DNA of 64,000 nucleotides, taken from Cutaneotrichosporon cavernicola (taxonomy: Eukaryota > Basidiomycota > Tremellomycetes > Trichosporonales > Trichosporonaceae). The DNA lies in the NCBI RefSeq assembly GCF_030864355.1, contig NC_083393.1, forward strand, positions 1,674,001 through 1,738,000, given 5' to 3'. The notes beneath the pieces are model-generated. The model saw nothing but the letters and a program-made list of their open reading frames with translations. It was not told the DNA's origin and did no database searches. Shown here piece after piece: positions 25,654-33,796 of this stretch (position 1 is the first letter of the stretch; the number at the start of each line of letters is the position of its first letter). Made by a program: the position numbers and the translations under genes.

Positions 25654-27326
25654 TTACACCAGGAGCGGGCTGTCGATCGAGCTGATGCCTGTGCGTTAGC
25701 TCCGTTCAAACAAACGAGCTTACCAATCGCGACGCCGCCCTCGTCGCTCTCCCGGCCCTTTGTCCGGAGCAGCGTCCCGGCCTCTCTGTTGACCGGAGTC
25801 ACCTTGCCGCCATACAGGGCAACACCGTACACGCCCAGCTCGGAGACGACGTCGGCGAGGCGGGGCGTGCCCTCACCTCCGCGCACCAGGAGGTTGTGCA
25901 CGCCCTTTGGAGGCTCGATGAGCTCCATGAGGATGTAGGCCTCGCGGCGCGGCGCCTCTCCAGGACGGGACTTGTCCTCCTCCTCCAGCTTGGCGAGGTA
26001 GGGCGGAATGTCGCCGCGGTAAATGTTGTTGCCGCCACCCTCACGTTGGGGCTTGAGTACGAAGCGCTCGGGATGCTCGTTCGCGAGCTGGACCGCTTTG
26101 GTGCCCTCTTCACTGCTGTCGAGCGGCCACAGACCCGTCCAGGTCTCACGCAGCGCCGCGGCGTCGCGCGCTCCTAGCGAACCTGGCCCCGCACCAAAGC
26201 CGACGTCGGGTCGCGCGTTGCCCAGAAGCATATCCTCCAGCACACCAGGTTCAGCAAGGACCTGCTGCACCTTCTTGGCGCCCGCAAGCTGCAGCGCCAT
26301 CGAGGGGCACTTGATCGCTGTCGAGCGCTCCAGCAGCACGCGCGTGTCCCACTCCGCCGAACTCATGTAGTCTGCCGGCGTGTACGCTGCACGGTAGTAG
26401 ACCAACGCGACCTCGAGTTGCTCCCCCCTGAGCGGACAGTCGAGCCAGAACACCTTGTCGTCGTCCAGCTGCCCGCGCTGCGCAACTTGGGCAAACGTCA
26501 GCCGCACGCTCTTGACGCGGTGCCGCTTAAGAAGCTGGTACTCGAGCGCCCGCTGGTCGAAAACGTTACGCTCGCCCTCCTGCACAACAAACAGCACGAC
26601 CGCGTCGCTGTTCCCGTACGCGTTGAATCCTTCGGCCAGGCCGGCCGCAATGTCCTCGAGCGAGTGGTTGTCGACGAACGAGTTGGGGTTGTGCAACTGC
26701 GGGTTTACGTGGTAGTAGTTGGTCTGCTCGGAGAGGTAGCTGATGTCAGGTACACACGGCCTAGAGCTCACCGATGCATCTCGCTCGCCTTCTGGCTGAG
26801 CGCGCCGAATGACGCCGCGATCGTGTTAAACTCGACCTGCTTGATACGCGACTTCTCCCCGACAGCATTCCCCTGCTCATGCAGGAGGTAGTCGGAGCGG
26901 AAGATGCCGAGTTGGACCGGCTGGAATTAGTCTGGACACACACATTCTACGCACCTGCGTCACCTTGATCTCGTCACGGATGGCCTTCCAGCGGTTCCAC
27001 AGCTCGGCCTGGAAGTCGTCAACCGGCGCGACATATTGCATGATCCCGTCGAGGAACTCCCAATCGAGTGCAACACGCGCATAAAGCGCATTGTAGAGGC
27101 GCTGAATACTCTTGGCCTGCACGTACGCTGGGCGCGGGAAGGGCGTGGGCAGAAGAGAGAGCGGCGCGGCGATGACCTGTGTAGGGATGGCCGGGACGTG
27201 CTCACCTTTGGGCGGGACGGGGAGGAGGGTGAAGCCGTTGGCGAGGGCGTATGTCGCAGCCTGGTGGGCGAGGTCGGCTTGCTGAGCCTCAGACAACGCA
27301 GGCGGCCAGGCTGGGAGAGGTGACAT
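25654..27326 (-). CDS. GSH2: glutathione synthetase (eukaryotic type)
   Basis: Joins gamma-glutamylcysteine and glycine with ATP to make glutathione; cytosolic. The start ATG at 27326 gives MSPLPAWPPALSE. Exons carry QAKSIQRLYNALYARVALD, then FRSDYLLHE and KQVEFNTIAASFGALS (substrate-binding), YLSEQTNYYHVNPQ, the ATP-grasp glycine loop KPQREGGGNNIYRGDIP and ILMELIEPP. A last intron (donor after GVAIG) leads to a 35-nt exon ending GISSIDSPLLV, the expected Gsh2 C-terminus. All regions of the family are present in order; length is about 490 residues. It is divergent from BNA6 with 223 bp between the starts. Confidence 0.95.
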
Positions 27327-27549
27327 GGTGGTCGAGGTTGGTGCGAGTGAGCGACAATACAATGCACGTCCCCGGATCCCAGATCCAAAGAACCGTCTTG
27401 GTCACCAACATTACGTGCTCACTAATCTGACTGGGGCACCGGACGGGACCAAATTCAACCGGTCCTTGACGTTCCGAGAGCGAATCCGTCAGACCACGGC
27501 TGCCGGGAATACTTGGAACGACGTTGAGCTCGTCTATCACTCACTCGCC
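27327..27549. promoter_or_regulatory. compact bidirectional promoter, GSH2 / BNA6
   Basis: Only 223 bp separate the two start codons, so the genes must share upstream DNA. I see no obvious TATA element. Core promoter positions are inferred from spacing only. Confidence 0.5.
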
Positions 27550-28532
<983 letters not shown>

Positions 28533-29678
28533 AACAAGGGCAAAAACGGGGATGCATGACTGACAACGGCTAGGGCACAGCTATTCACTACAGGTTACAA
28601 GAGGGTCGTACAGTGTTGGTGATGGGTGGGGTGGGATGGGATGGGGTGAGGGAGAGCGGCGGCTCTAATGTTGGGAAGTGGATGGGCCGGGCGTTGAGGA
28701 GCGAGAGGGCATGGGGTTGTGGCTGGGCAGGTCGGGCCGATGGATCGCGATGGTCATAACTGGACTTCGTGTATTCGCTACCATTCCGCGGCGCTACTCG
28801 GTCGTCATCGTCGCGGGTAGGTGAGAAGCATCTCCGCGTTCTGGATCACAGCTGCGTCGTCGCGTTCGTGATTTTGTACGAGATTTCGATTTCTGCGCAA
28901 TCGTGGGTGCAGGATCGGCAGGTGGACCCGCAGATCGGCAGCTTGGCCGGGTGGTGGTGCACGTGCGTAATTGAATAGTGGTGGGTGGTGGGTGGTGGGT
29001 GGTGGGTGGTGGTGCTGGGTCGGGTTGGGCGGGAATGTAGCGAGGTGGTAGATGTGGTTGGCGAGAGGGAAGACAACTCAGCTCGTCGCCGCGTGCCGCC
29101 GTACACCCCGGTCGTCACCGATGGGGGTGATGGGTGGGCACGGGGGGCGGGGCGGGTACGGCGTGTCGCCTGGGCGCAGGTGGGTACGCATGGTGTTGTG
29201 GTGGTGGGTTGATGATAGAGAGAGGGGAGTGGGTAGAGGTTGCTTGGTTGTGGTGCGTGGATGTAGTGACTGGAGTTGTGAGTGTGCGATTGCGGCGGAT
29301 TCTGAGCAGTCCCGCTACCGTCTTAAGAGCCCAAGATGTCGAGGTCAGATAATGTCTTCGCATCCGCGTGGGCGCAAAGAAGCCCGCAGCGATCCTCCGT
29401 CGCGTGAAGTCTGTAAGGCCGATCCGCGTGAACATTACCAAAGCGCGACCAAGACAAATGTACAACGTGCATGTTACAATTCCCCTTTGTCCGATGTGTA
29501 GGGGATTAAACTGTTGTGCCGCCAGGCGCGTCATACGCCGACTCGCCCGGCCGTTCCGCATCGCACTGTCCTACGTGAGGCGCGAGTGTGTCCCGGAATA
29601 CGGGCGGACCGTCGTCACTATTTCCACAGCCATTACACCCAAACCCCACCCCCTCGTGCTTGATGTTCAGCCCCAGTC
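28533..29678. other. intergenic, 1.1 kb, G-rich
   Basis: Tail-to-tail spacer between BNA6 and the chromodomain gene. Strongly G/T-rich on the plus strand, including the GTGGGTG tract at 28978-29015 and further G clusters to about 29240. No gene supported on either strand. Confidence 0.45.
28978..29015 (+). repeat. tandem GGTGGGT repeat, G-quadruplex-prone
   Basis: About five tandem copies of TGGTGGG, continuing as interrupted G-runs to about 29035 on the plus strand. It lies about 450 bp past the BNA6 stop and about 660 bp past the stop of the chromodomain gene. Four or more G3 tracts with short loops fit the usual quadruplex pattern. Confidence 0.75.
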
Positions 29679-31795
29679 CTACTTTTTGACCCGAGCCCGT
29701 TTCGCTGCCCGCGCCGCGCGCCCCGCTGCCTGTTTCCCGACCTCGCGGACGGGCGTGTAGTTCTCCATCTTGATGACGTGCCCATCTGGCCACGTGAATG
29801 GCTTGTTGTTCTTGACATCTTCAACTGCCGCCCGAAGATTACGCTCGATCTCGAGCCACTCCTCCAACGCCTGTCGTCAGCTCTAGCTGGGTGTGAGCTC
29901 ACTTCCTCGGCATCCACCCGTAGTGAGCTTTCACGCTCCCACGTGTCCCACTCTGGCATCCATCCCGTCCAGCGCACGCGGAAGAGCCCGTCCGGATCGT
30001 CGGGCTGTCCAAGACGCGCAACGACCTTCTCGATCTCGTAAATGTCGTCACCCATTGAACCCACGTGGTCGTCCTCCTCGGCGTGCTCCCCGTCCCATGG
30101 TGCGCGCGAGGTGCTACCGAGCCACTTCTTTTCGACGCACCACGCCGGCGGACCGCACTTCTCCGTCACCTGGGCGTCGTATGTTGGTGCGGGTTTGTTG
30201 GCCAGCGATCGCGTGCCCTTGCTCACGTAGGCGTTGACGTAGCGGAGTGCCCAGCAGAGGGCATTCTCGACGTCTAACACCCGCATCCCAGGTCGCAGAC
30301 CGTTCTCCCATTCGTGGGGTGGGTCGAGGCCTAGCCGTGCCCAGTACCGCCACTGGTTATCTGCCAGCCAGCGAAGCCCCGCCTCCTCCATCGCCACGTT
30401 GTTGATGATGTTCTTGCCGAACATCCGCTGTGTGAATTTACGCGACCCGGGCCCGCACGTCGCAAAGTCGCGGTAGCGCCACTTGAAGTGCGTCGTGTCG
30501 TTGAGGAAACACAGGATGTTGAGGCCCAGAAACCCGCCAAGCGTCGGAACCGTGCCGAGCACATACGACGCGTCAACGGCATATGTGCACTTGGCGAGGC
30601 GCGCCGGGATCCCGGCCTTCATGATGGCCAGCACGAGGCGCAAGCTCGCCGCGTAATGCGCCATGTCCTTGCCTCGATTCCTGTACGTCTTTGCAAAGTA
30701 GACCGTAGGCGGTACAATTTGGAAAGCACCGCGCCACAGCCTCTGGTGCTCGACGATGCTCATCTGGTGAAGCGTCGCCTCCATGGCGGGCATGTCGGTC
30801 TCGAAATTGTTCCATGTAGGAATGCCGCCAACGGCCTTGCACAGCGCCTCCCACGTCGTGTCCTTGTAGAACATACAGAAGAGGAAGACGCGGAAGCAGA
30901 CTTCCCCGACGCTCTGGTCGCCCTTGCCGATGATGTTGTTGCGCATGTTGGCGCTCGACGGGTCGAGCTGGCGGTAGACGTTACCGATGTGGATCGCTTT
31001 CATCGTCTCGTCGTTCGTCAATTTGTGGCGGGCAACACCCGCCGCGCGGCGAGTGTACATCGCGTGCCGCTCGGCGCAGAAGCGAAAGAAAAGGTAGACC
31101 CAATGGTTATCAACCTTGCACTGGACGGGCTTTAGGCAGAGGGGCTTGAGAGTCACGGGCTCTAGGTCCCTCCCGACGGCGCTACCGCTCCGCCTCCCGG
31201 GTTCGGACTTGACGTCGTCATCCAACTCGTCAATATCTGTGGAGGCCGAGGACGCGCGCGGATCATACGCGTCATCATTGTGGATGTCCTGCGCAGACCT
31301 CGCGTTGCGCGACGCTACGCTGGCGATATCGTCGTCGTCGTCCACCTTAGGATCTGGGGAAGGTGGGTATAGACCAACGGGAGCTGGTCGACACCCGTGA
31401 GCAGCGCTTTGGGGGGTCGGCTCCACGTCTTCAGCGGTGTCGATCGACTCCTGATCGTCGTCGGACACGAAAGTGAACTCGAGTCTAGTCGCCTCAATTT
31501 CCTCCTCTTCCTCCTCTTCCTCCTCTTCCGCTTCGTCTGGTTCGAATCGCCGTAGTGGTTTCCTGAGTGAAAGCTCGTGCATGACATCCTCCTTCTCCCT
31601 TAGCCGGCGAAGGGTTTCCGCCAAGTCATCGTCGTCGTCGTTGTCGCCTTTGCTTGTCGAGCGGCGCCTCATGAACGACGGAAGCTCGTCTTCACTACTG
31701 TCCGCGAGGTTAACGATCTCAGGACCAGGCCACCTAACAGGCTTTCGCAGATCACGAGGCGCAGCCCCGCTCGAGGAAGGCTTCGCACGGGCCAT
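29679..31795 (-). CDS. chromodomain protein with 5-hmdU DNA kinase / thymine-hypermodification-type helical domain
   Basis: Two exons, 31795-29903 and 29870-29679, with a 32-nt intron in phase 0; 694 residues. Residues 1-220 are acidic and disordered with an early SUMO-interaction-like patch (EIVNLADSSEDE). Residues about 225-520 are helical: FRFCAERHAMYTRRAAG, IHIGNVYRQLD, FRVFLFCMFYKDTTWEAL, TVPTLGGFLGLNILCFLND, FATCGPGSRKF. This order (ERH..RR, N-V-Y-R-x-L-D, G-G-F-L-x-x-x-I, G-P-G) matches my knowledge of the HMUDK_hel / alpha-glutamyl-putrescinyl-thymine pyrophosphorylase family from T-hypermodifying phages and fungi. Residues about 582-655 form a chromodomain: YEIEKVVARL ... FRVRWTGWMPEWDTWERES ... 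ALEEWLEIE, with aromatic cage positions Y, W and W. The splice restores its C-terminal helix. The tail is Lys/Arg/Ala-rich. Nuclear chromatin role inferred; enzyme activity untested. Confidence 0.75.
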
Positions 31796-32444: not shown

Positions 32445-33796
32445 ATGACCAACGCTCTCGACGCTCTCAAGGCGTAAGTTTGCTGCGTGCCTCCACACCG
32501 TCTCGACGCTGACATATCTTCCTTTCTTCGAACGTTCGTCGCACCTGCACTCCTGTCATTCTCACCTCCATTGTCCACGTCGTCACTTCGCCACCTCGTC
32601 GTGTTCCCCTCACTCCGTCTCACGACTTTGGTTCTCTATCCTCTCTCTTCCAACCTCGTATCCGCCACGGCTTTCCGCCTAAATTCACTCCGTCGACATT
32701 CACACACGTTCACACATATTCACTAACCTTGTCTCTCCCTCCCGCTTTTGAATTTCCAGTACCGGCACCGTTGTCGTCTCGGACTCGGGCGACTTTGGGT
32801 CGATCGCCGAGTACAAGCCCCAGGACGCTACCACCAACCCCTCCCTCATGTGAGTGCCTCCCAAAAGCCCATTTCTGGCCGCTTAAGCTGACAAAAGCCT
32901 CGCCGCTGCCAAGCTCCCCGCCTATGCCAAGATCATCGACGGCGCCGTTGAGGCCGGCAAGAAGCACGGCGGCACCGTCGACGAGCAGATCGACTATGCC
33001 GTAGACAGCCTTCTCGTCGAGTTCGGCCGCCAGATCCTCGAGATTGTCCCTGGCCGCGTCTCGACTGAGGTTGACGCCAAGTACTCGTTCGACAAGGAGG
33101 GAACCATTAAGAAGGCCCACGAGCTCCACGCCCTCTACGCTAAGGCCGGTGTCGACAAGAGCCGTGTCCTCATCAAGATTGCTTCCACCTGGGAGGGTAT
33201 CCAGGCTGCCGCCGAGCTCGAGAAGCAGGGCGTCAAGTGAGTTTGCTCCGTCAGGTTCAAGATCCAAGCTAACAGCCAGCTGCAACTTGACCCTCCTCTT
33301 CGGCTTTGCCCAGGCCGTGGCCTGTGCCGAGGCCGGTGTCACCCTCATCTCGCCCTTCGTTGGCCGTATCCTCGACTGGTACAAGAAGAGCACCGGGCAG
33401 GAGTACACCGCCGAGACCGACCCTGGTGTCAAGTCGGTCGCCCACATCTACAACTACTACAAGCAGCACGGCTACAAGACGATTGTCATGGGCGCCTCGT
33501 TCCGCAACACGGGTGAGATCAAGCAGCTCGCCGGCGTCGACTACCTCACCATTGCTCCCAAGCTGCTTAAGGAGCTCCAGGACTCGGACGCGGCCGTGCC
33601 GGCCCTCCTCTCGGTCGACAAGGCCAAGCAGGCGGAGCCCATCCCCAAGGCGTCGTACATCAACGACGAGGCCAAGTTCCGCTGGGCCCTGTTCTCCGAG
33701 CAGATGGCGTTTGAGAAGCTCTACGAGGGTATCCGCGGCTTTGCCAAGGACGGCAACACCCTCCGCGAGCTCGTTGCTTCCAAGATCAAGGCTTAA
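32445..33796 (+). CDS. TAL1: transaldolase
   Basis: Pentose phosphate pathway enzyme transferring a dihydroxyacetone unit between sugar phosphates through a Schiff base; cytosolic. Exons are 32445-32473, 32760-32849, 32898-33236 and 33280-33796, giving 324 residues, the usual length. Motifs: [20 protein letters not shown] (substrate site), [12 protein letters not shown] (signature 1), [13 protein letters not shown] with the Schiff-base Lys in signature 2, then [20 protein letters not shown] and [12 protein letters not shown]. The first exon codes only nine full residues. Its intron is 286 nt, far longer than its neighbours. This gives the gene an intron-rich 5' leader typical of strongly expressed fungal genes. 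Confidence 0.96.

Follow-up and report, generated by a model that had tools for sequence, protein, structure and literature searches.

The window analyzed here, a 64,000-nucleotide stretch of the Cutaneotrichosporon cavernicola genome, encodes a protein in which an HMUDK_hel domain is fused to a chromodomain. The gene belongs to the host, is conserved, and occurs in a single copy in this genome as counted by PF18723. We propose, with a confidence slightly short of even, that its product is a base-handling protein tethered to methylated histones whose catalysis has been altered or lost in the lineage of the window. The chromodomain would anchor this product at a histone methyl-lysine mark, HMUDK_hel would bind the DNA there, and an extrahelical, probably 5-substituted, pyrimidine would enter its pocket. 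In this lineage, the protein would most likely read or bind either DNA or a modified base, or perform changed chemistry, and would be neither the ancestral modification enzyme nor a kinase. Provided that HMUDK_hel has kept its ability to handle DNA bases, the fusion would connect histone marks directly, through one fungal protein, to an unusual DNA-base chemistry. The features of the gene are as follows.

29679..31795, minus strand: whole gene for the HMUDK_hel–chromodomain protein, 694 amino acids; its ATG and stop coincide exactly with the coordinates of the initial annotation
29903..31795, minus strand: exon 1, residues 1–631, from the translated sequence
29871..29902, minus strand: GT..AG intron, 32 nt; the orthologue P0002 is continuous over the junction
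29679..29870, minus strand: exon 2, residues 632–694 and stop, with the end of the chromodomain helix and a basic tail
31121..31795, minus strand: N-terminal region, residues 1–225, acidic, of low complexity and weakly conserved (sequence and alignment)
30230..31105, minus strand: HMUDK_hel (PF18723), residues 231–522 (247.1 bits; model pLDDT 90.6; fold matches)
30962..30982, minus strand: N272-x2-R275-x2-D278 motif, kept; N, R and D are each present in 54/54 prokaryote rows
30875..30877, minus strand: Cys307, basic (R/K) in 54/54 prokaryote rows (alignment)
30506..30508, minus strand: Phe430, in the helix after the GGF hairpin, Asp in 54/54 prokaryote rows (alignment)
30446..30454, minus strand: GPG448–450 loop, kept (alignment)
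30239..30256, minus strand: C514-W515..R518-Y519, against C-E..K-Y in prokaryotes (alignment)
29853..30040, minus strand: chromodomain (PF00385), residues 586–637, split by the intron, with cage residues Y586, W609 and W612 (Pfam, phmmer and alignment)

The product equals the database protein P0001 (CcaverHIS019_0106300) in length and was 100% identical to it over the residues searched (220–694). A splice restoring the chromodomain helix had been proposed from the sequence, and P0002 supports it: this orthologue aligned to exon 2 and reads through the splice junction without a break. At 32 nt, the intron is very short for a spliceosomal one. The gene had also been considered live, and this is likely, as the gene is conserved.

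The assignment of residues 231–522 to HMUDK_hel was confirmed by a Pfam scan, in which PF18723 matched at E 2.9e-73, far over its cut-off of 25 bits, and covered profile positions 2–274 of 281. All four of the motifs noticed in the initial annotation (ERH..RR, NVYRxLD, GGFLxxxI and GPG) were present. The 20.2 Mb assembly contained one PF18723 match, and the 14 control genomes contained none. Apart from HMUDK_hel and Chromo, the only Pfam row at E<=1 was a chance-level match to Paf1 (E 0.4); no P-loop family, HhH-GPD family or ADDT (PF18724) profile matched the protein at this threshold, nor did the profile of the queuosine nucleosidase DUF2419. A PHROGs search with exon 1 returned phrog_2396, annotated as function unknown, at 3e-21. 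NCBIfam gave no match for seven proteins, and PADLOC gave none for 10, of which nine were prokaryotic (HMUDK_hel proteins or their neighbours) and the tenth was P0001.

The C-terminal chromodomain, also recognized initially, was a weaker match than HMUDK_hel, with PF00385 scoring 25.7 bits against a cut-off of 25.1. In a phmmer comparison with solved structures, the best matches were MPP8 (E 3.3e-5; 9.2e-6 for the exon-1 part alone) and other chromodomain proteins. Aromatic residues occupied positions 586, 609 and 612 in all 21 fungal rows compared; in HP1-type domains these are the methyl-lysine cage positions. The domain thus resembles MPP8/HP1/CDYL-type chromodomains in its aromatic cage positions and DTWE motif but differs from them in being fused to a DNA-modification-type domain. 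The cage makes delivery of the protein to heterochromatin plausible. The C. cavernicola genome contained one Pre-SET match and two DNA_methylase matches, each of the latter with a stop inside its six-frame stretch, as an intron could give; on the basis of these matches, both histone-lysine and DNA methylation are possible in this species.

A first protein search returned 29 relatives including the window's own protein, 26 of them with both domains, and a profile search returned 52, 46 of them with both (precomputed Pfam; 8000 candidates scored in each search). Combined, the searches yielded 56 distinct proteins. Named sources were two Cutaneotrichosporon, seven Kwoniella, Vanrija, Tremellales sp. 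Uapishka_1, Naematelia, Kockovaella, Parajaminaea (Exobasidiomycetes), three Sporisorium (Ustilaginomycetes) and Kalmanozyma, and the remainder were metagenome proteins; no row among the 56 was named Cryptococcus. Classes were looked up for Cutaneotrichosporon (Tremellomycetes, Trichosporonales), Parajaminaea and Sporisorium, and the usual classification is assumed for the other genera. The HMUDK_hel–chromodomain pair is conserved across three basidiomycete classes. One orthologue, P0173 of Sporisorium scitamineum, bears the database name 'related to SET2-Histone methyltransferase', whereas precomputed Pfam assigns it HMUDK_hel and its sequence can be aligned to orthologues that have the chromodomain; the SET2 name is probably an error.

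The initial annotation had read the protein as a DNA-base kinase aimed at heterochromatin. PF18723 does carry the Pfam name '5-hmdU DNA kinase, helical domain', and PMC6449724 presents a 5-hmdU DNA kinase as the presumed agent of 5-hmdU phosphorylation in the DNA of phages M6, ViI and phiW-14, with the gene left unspecified in the text consulted. The available text of PMC6457204, likewise without specifying a gene, describes 5-HMUDK as phosphorylating 5-hmU but not 5-hmC in DNA, and an excerpt of PMC11955845 describes one phage cassette containing both a 5-hmU DNA kinase and a protein with an aGPT-Pplase2 domain (further background in excerpts of PMC5977210, PMC11550810 and PMC12730594). We scanned five phage records, M6, phiW-14, ViI, LuckyBarnes and D506, the last two having been chosen because they already matched PF18723. 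PF18723 matched all five, PF18724 (ADDT) matched all except LuckyBarnes, and PF18748 (5-hmdU DNA kinase, P-loop) matched only M6 and ViI. In M6, PF18748 fell on gp54, PF18724 on gp51 and PF18723 alone on gp55; in Vi01, the PF18748 and HMUDK_hel genes are ~49 kb apart. At the cut-offs applied, PF18723 was likewise the sole family in the other phage proteins scanned individually (LuckyBarnes gp38 and two Vibrio phage proteins). Because the P-loop profile matches gp54 of M6 whereas HMUDK_hel stands alone on gp55, HMUDK_hel is not itself the P-loop kinase, despite its Pfam name. M6 gp54 (L005:16686-17249) matched PF18748 at 65 bits, yet it is named terminase small subunit in its record and by PHROGs, so its kinase label, too, is profile-based. 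In D506, a gene annotated as guanylate kinase adjoins ADDT and was matched neither by PF18748 nor by a purpose-built kinase profile; distant kinases can therefore escape detection, a point in favour of the kinase reading. Against it stand the separate PF18748 genes, the lack of a P-loop family in the protein and the glycosylase-like predicted fold described below, and we consider a heterochromatin-directed kinase scarcely credible. The HMUDK_hel domain, the chromodomain fusion and the conserved gene of the initial interpretation stood, while its kinase activity was not supported. P0171, a Ustilaginomycete protein from Sporisorium graminicola, found no match in viral_contigs.

The structure model of the domain was compared with known folds, and the predicted fold was of the DNA-glycosylase/amino-acid:DNA-transferase type. 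The nearest solved fold was the phage 5-PmdU glycinyltransferase PUGT (PDB 8z2n, 8z2m), from which the protein differs in sequence: identity is 8%, PF18724 is absent, and hhalign of the HMUDK_hel and ADDT profiles (17 and 4 sequences) gave a weak probability of 3.5%. Homology of HMUDK_hel and ADDT by sequence profile was accordingly set aside, the two being joined by fold comparison only. Since the fold and many gene neighbourhoods favour base handling or transfer, they suggest that the Pfam label 'kinase' for PF18723 is misleading. VIA fold matches to M. jannaschii Ogg (9.0), NTHL1 (8.4), EndoIII-3 (8.2) and AlkA (7.0) raise the alternative that the protein is a DNA N-glycosylase excising a damaged or modified base in heterochromatin. 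We consider this quite improbable: like DUF2419, the HhH-GPD glycosylases share no Pfam sequence match with the fungal protein, and many prokaryotic relatives adjoin thymidylate synthase and other modification genes. GPG, which we take from sequence order only to lie roughly at the place of the glycosylase catalytic Asp, also counts against an N-glycosylase.

To place the fungal domain among its relatives, we collected 48 bacterial and archaeal HMUDK_hel loci in one phage-profile scan of genome_contigs. A tree of 75 domain sequences (LG+G4, 270 columns, midpoint root) was built from 40 of these loci, 14 proteins of phage or phage-like type and 21, long ones for the most part, of the 56 that are fungal or fungal-like; seven loci without a central frame by a simple gene caller, and L090, were left out. 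All 21 fungal sequences fell in one clade (support 100), which was sister (support 96) to 22 bacterial loci together with LuckyBarnes and contig L024. Within the fungal clade, Parajaminaea P0025 grouped with the Tremellomycetes, away from the taxonomically nearer Ustilaginomycetes; an old duplication (paralogy) or a transfer would explain this placement.

Within the stretches available for the 48 loci, neighbouring genes encoded homologues of thymidylate synthase (27 loci, a count that may include housekeeping enzymes), TylF (14), MazG_C (9), a PF18748-like P-loop kinase (7), ADDT (5) and a phrog_842 glucosyltransferase (1). The neighbour profiles had two to six members each, so that seeds drawn from these loci match by construction, and some loci end at contig edges. 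In the sister clade, TylF was found at 14 of the 22 bacterial loci, thymidylate synthase at 12 (distant and on the opposite strand in L061) and MazG_C at 9, and both phage loci had a thymidylate synthase together with glucosyltransferase genes of the phrog_842 type. None of the 24 sister-clade stretches was matched by the P-loop kinase or ADDT profile, at a sensitivity limited as the escaped D506 gene illustrates. MazG-C is described as a predicted nucleotide kinase in the accessible part of PMC13092281, which counts against a clean 'no kinase' reading of the sister clade and lends the kinase alternative some support. Thus, the nearest relatives recovered for the fungal domain mostly occupy modification-type surroundings in which neither the kinase nor the amino-acid transferase known from M6 was detected. 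These bacterial chromosomal loci are unlike C. cavernicola in their operon-like setting and full charged set (see below), and their frames of 321–394 aa (n=22) are, by length alone, too short for the fungal layout.

In several loci, HMUDK_hel recurs in a row with a TylF-like SAM O-methyltransferase gene and one for a long homologue of thymidylate synthase, the three abutting or nearly abutting (L074:5381-9029; also L068, L072, L076–L079, L082 and L083), and MazG_C lies alongside TylF in L063, L064, L069, L075 and L081. The row of three may represent a DNA- or nucleotide-modification cassette. In Brevibacterium phage LuckyBarnes (L002:4825-8840) and in L024:2170-6939, HMUDK_hel lies near the thymidylate synthase and glucosyltransferase genes; neither ADDT nor a PF18748-like kinase was found in these two stretches, a setting that differs from that of M6 and ViI.

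These neighbourhoods bear on two further alternatives. The substrate could be RNA or free nucleotides, as for the queuosine nucleosidase DUF2419; the prokaryotic surroundings of thymidylate synthase and phage DNA modification speak against this, as does the chromodomain, which would put the protein on chromatin, and we regard it as very improbable. Alternatively, the protein may be an active writer that adds a group to thymine or 5-hydroxymethyluracil of DNA at methyl-histone chromatin, producing a fungal hypermodified base. The thymidylate synthase homologues near 27 of the 48 loci and the glycinyltransferase as nearest solved fold both point in this direction, and conserved residues do so in part. 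We nevertheless consider an active writer rather unlikely, given the residue losses described next. No source of 5-hmU is known here, and searches of the C. cavernicola genome for Tet_JBP, PF18748 and PF18724 returned no match, though the control was likewise silent in all three.

Among the 54 prokaryote rows of the alignment, 20 columns reached 90% conservation or more. Of these, 14 are retained in the window protein (R243, D262, N272, R275, D278, T314, A357, G420, F422, G448, P449, G450, C514 and Y519), compared with 42 of 228 other columns, so the conserved residues have not all been lost; this retention also favours a writer. The six changed columns are P258, F270, D430, G454, E515 and K518 of the prokaryotes. 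D430, E515 and K518 are each found in 54/54 prokaryote rows, and position 307, basic by charge class, is R or K in all 54. The phage proteins M6 gp55, ViI Vi01_130c and phiW-14 gp72 have the whole-length domain in common with the fungal protein and share R243, N272, R275, D278, GPG and C514 with it; they differ in keeping R/K307, D430, E515 and K518, M6 gp55 in consisting of PF18723 alone, and all three phages in possessing ADDT, M6 and ViI also the PF18748 kinase.

By alignment, the initial annotation had overlooked that 307, 430 and 515 are replaced, and K518 is changed to R, in the window's lineage. All four positions are kept in five Ustilaginomycete-type rows (four from Sporisorium or Kalmanozyma and one more). 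In the other 16 fungal rows, 307 is Cys (15) or Ser (1), 430 is Phe (8), Tyr (7) or Asn (1), 515 is Trp in all 16, and 518 is Arg (15) or Lys (1); the four columns agreed in a second alignment. An acid at 433, present in 15 of the 16 rows, could perhaps take the place of D430. New near-invariant residues, such as C447, W482 and W485, are common to these 16 rows, which argues for constraint on the altered domain and against its decay. We therefore return to the reader, binder or changed-chemistry reading, as 307, 430 and 515 are now Cys, aromatic and Trp, while R243, D262, N272, R275, D278, GPG, C514 and Y519 remain.

The intact charged set of the Ustilaginomycete-type orthologues supports a writer there, and these proteins are the stronger candidates for an enzyme that actively modifies DNA bases; of the possibilities that are left, a genuine DNA writer in this branch is the most exciting. 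Some orthologues have the ancestral charged set and others lack it, which provides a natural comparison. A broader and improbable scenario is that basidiomycetes, a single time, captured from bacteria an enzyme for DNA hypermodification and tethered it to methylated histones, with Ustilaginomycetes writing, and the window's lineage reading, a hypermodified thymine-derived base in heterochromatin. If true, histone methylation would be guiding a fungal DNA mark other than 5mC and the oxidised derivatives of 5mC.

The domain and its fusion are already visible in public annotation (Pfam columns). The abstract of Iyer 2013 reportedly counts basidiomycetes with the eukaryotes that have systems of this kind; the occurrence of the family in fungi, and possibly the fusion as well, may thus have been published already. 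We recognized no functional study or paper on the fungal fusion in the literature searched, most subscription papers being outside its scope. A 5-hydroxymethyluracil kinase domain, which may or may not be PF18723, has newly been linked to defence together with thymidylate synthase, according to the accessible part of PMC13092281. The fungal fusion could help define the role of HMUDK_hel in phages and bacteria.

The gene is flanked by the plus-strand stretches 27286-28041 and 32887-33240, matched by Pfam to QRPTase_N (quinolinate phosphoribosyltransferase) and TAL_FSA (transaldolase), respectively; from these matches, both look like ordinary metabolic genes. Downstream of the gene, a GGTGGGTGGTGGGTGG repeat run lies at window positions 28978-29020, G-rich on the plus strand, and is a possible G-quadruplex former.
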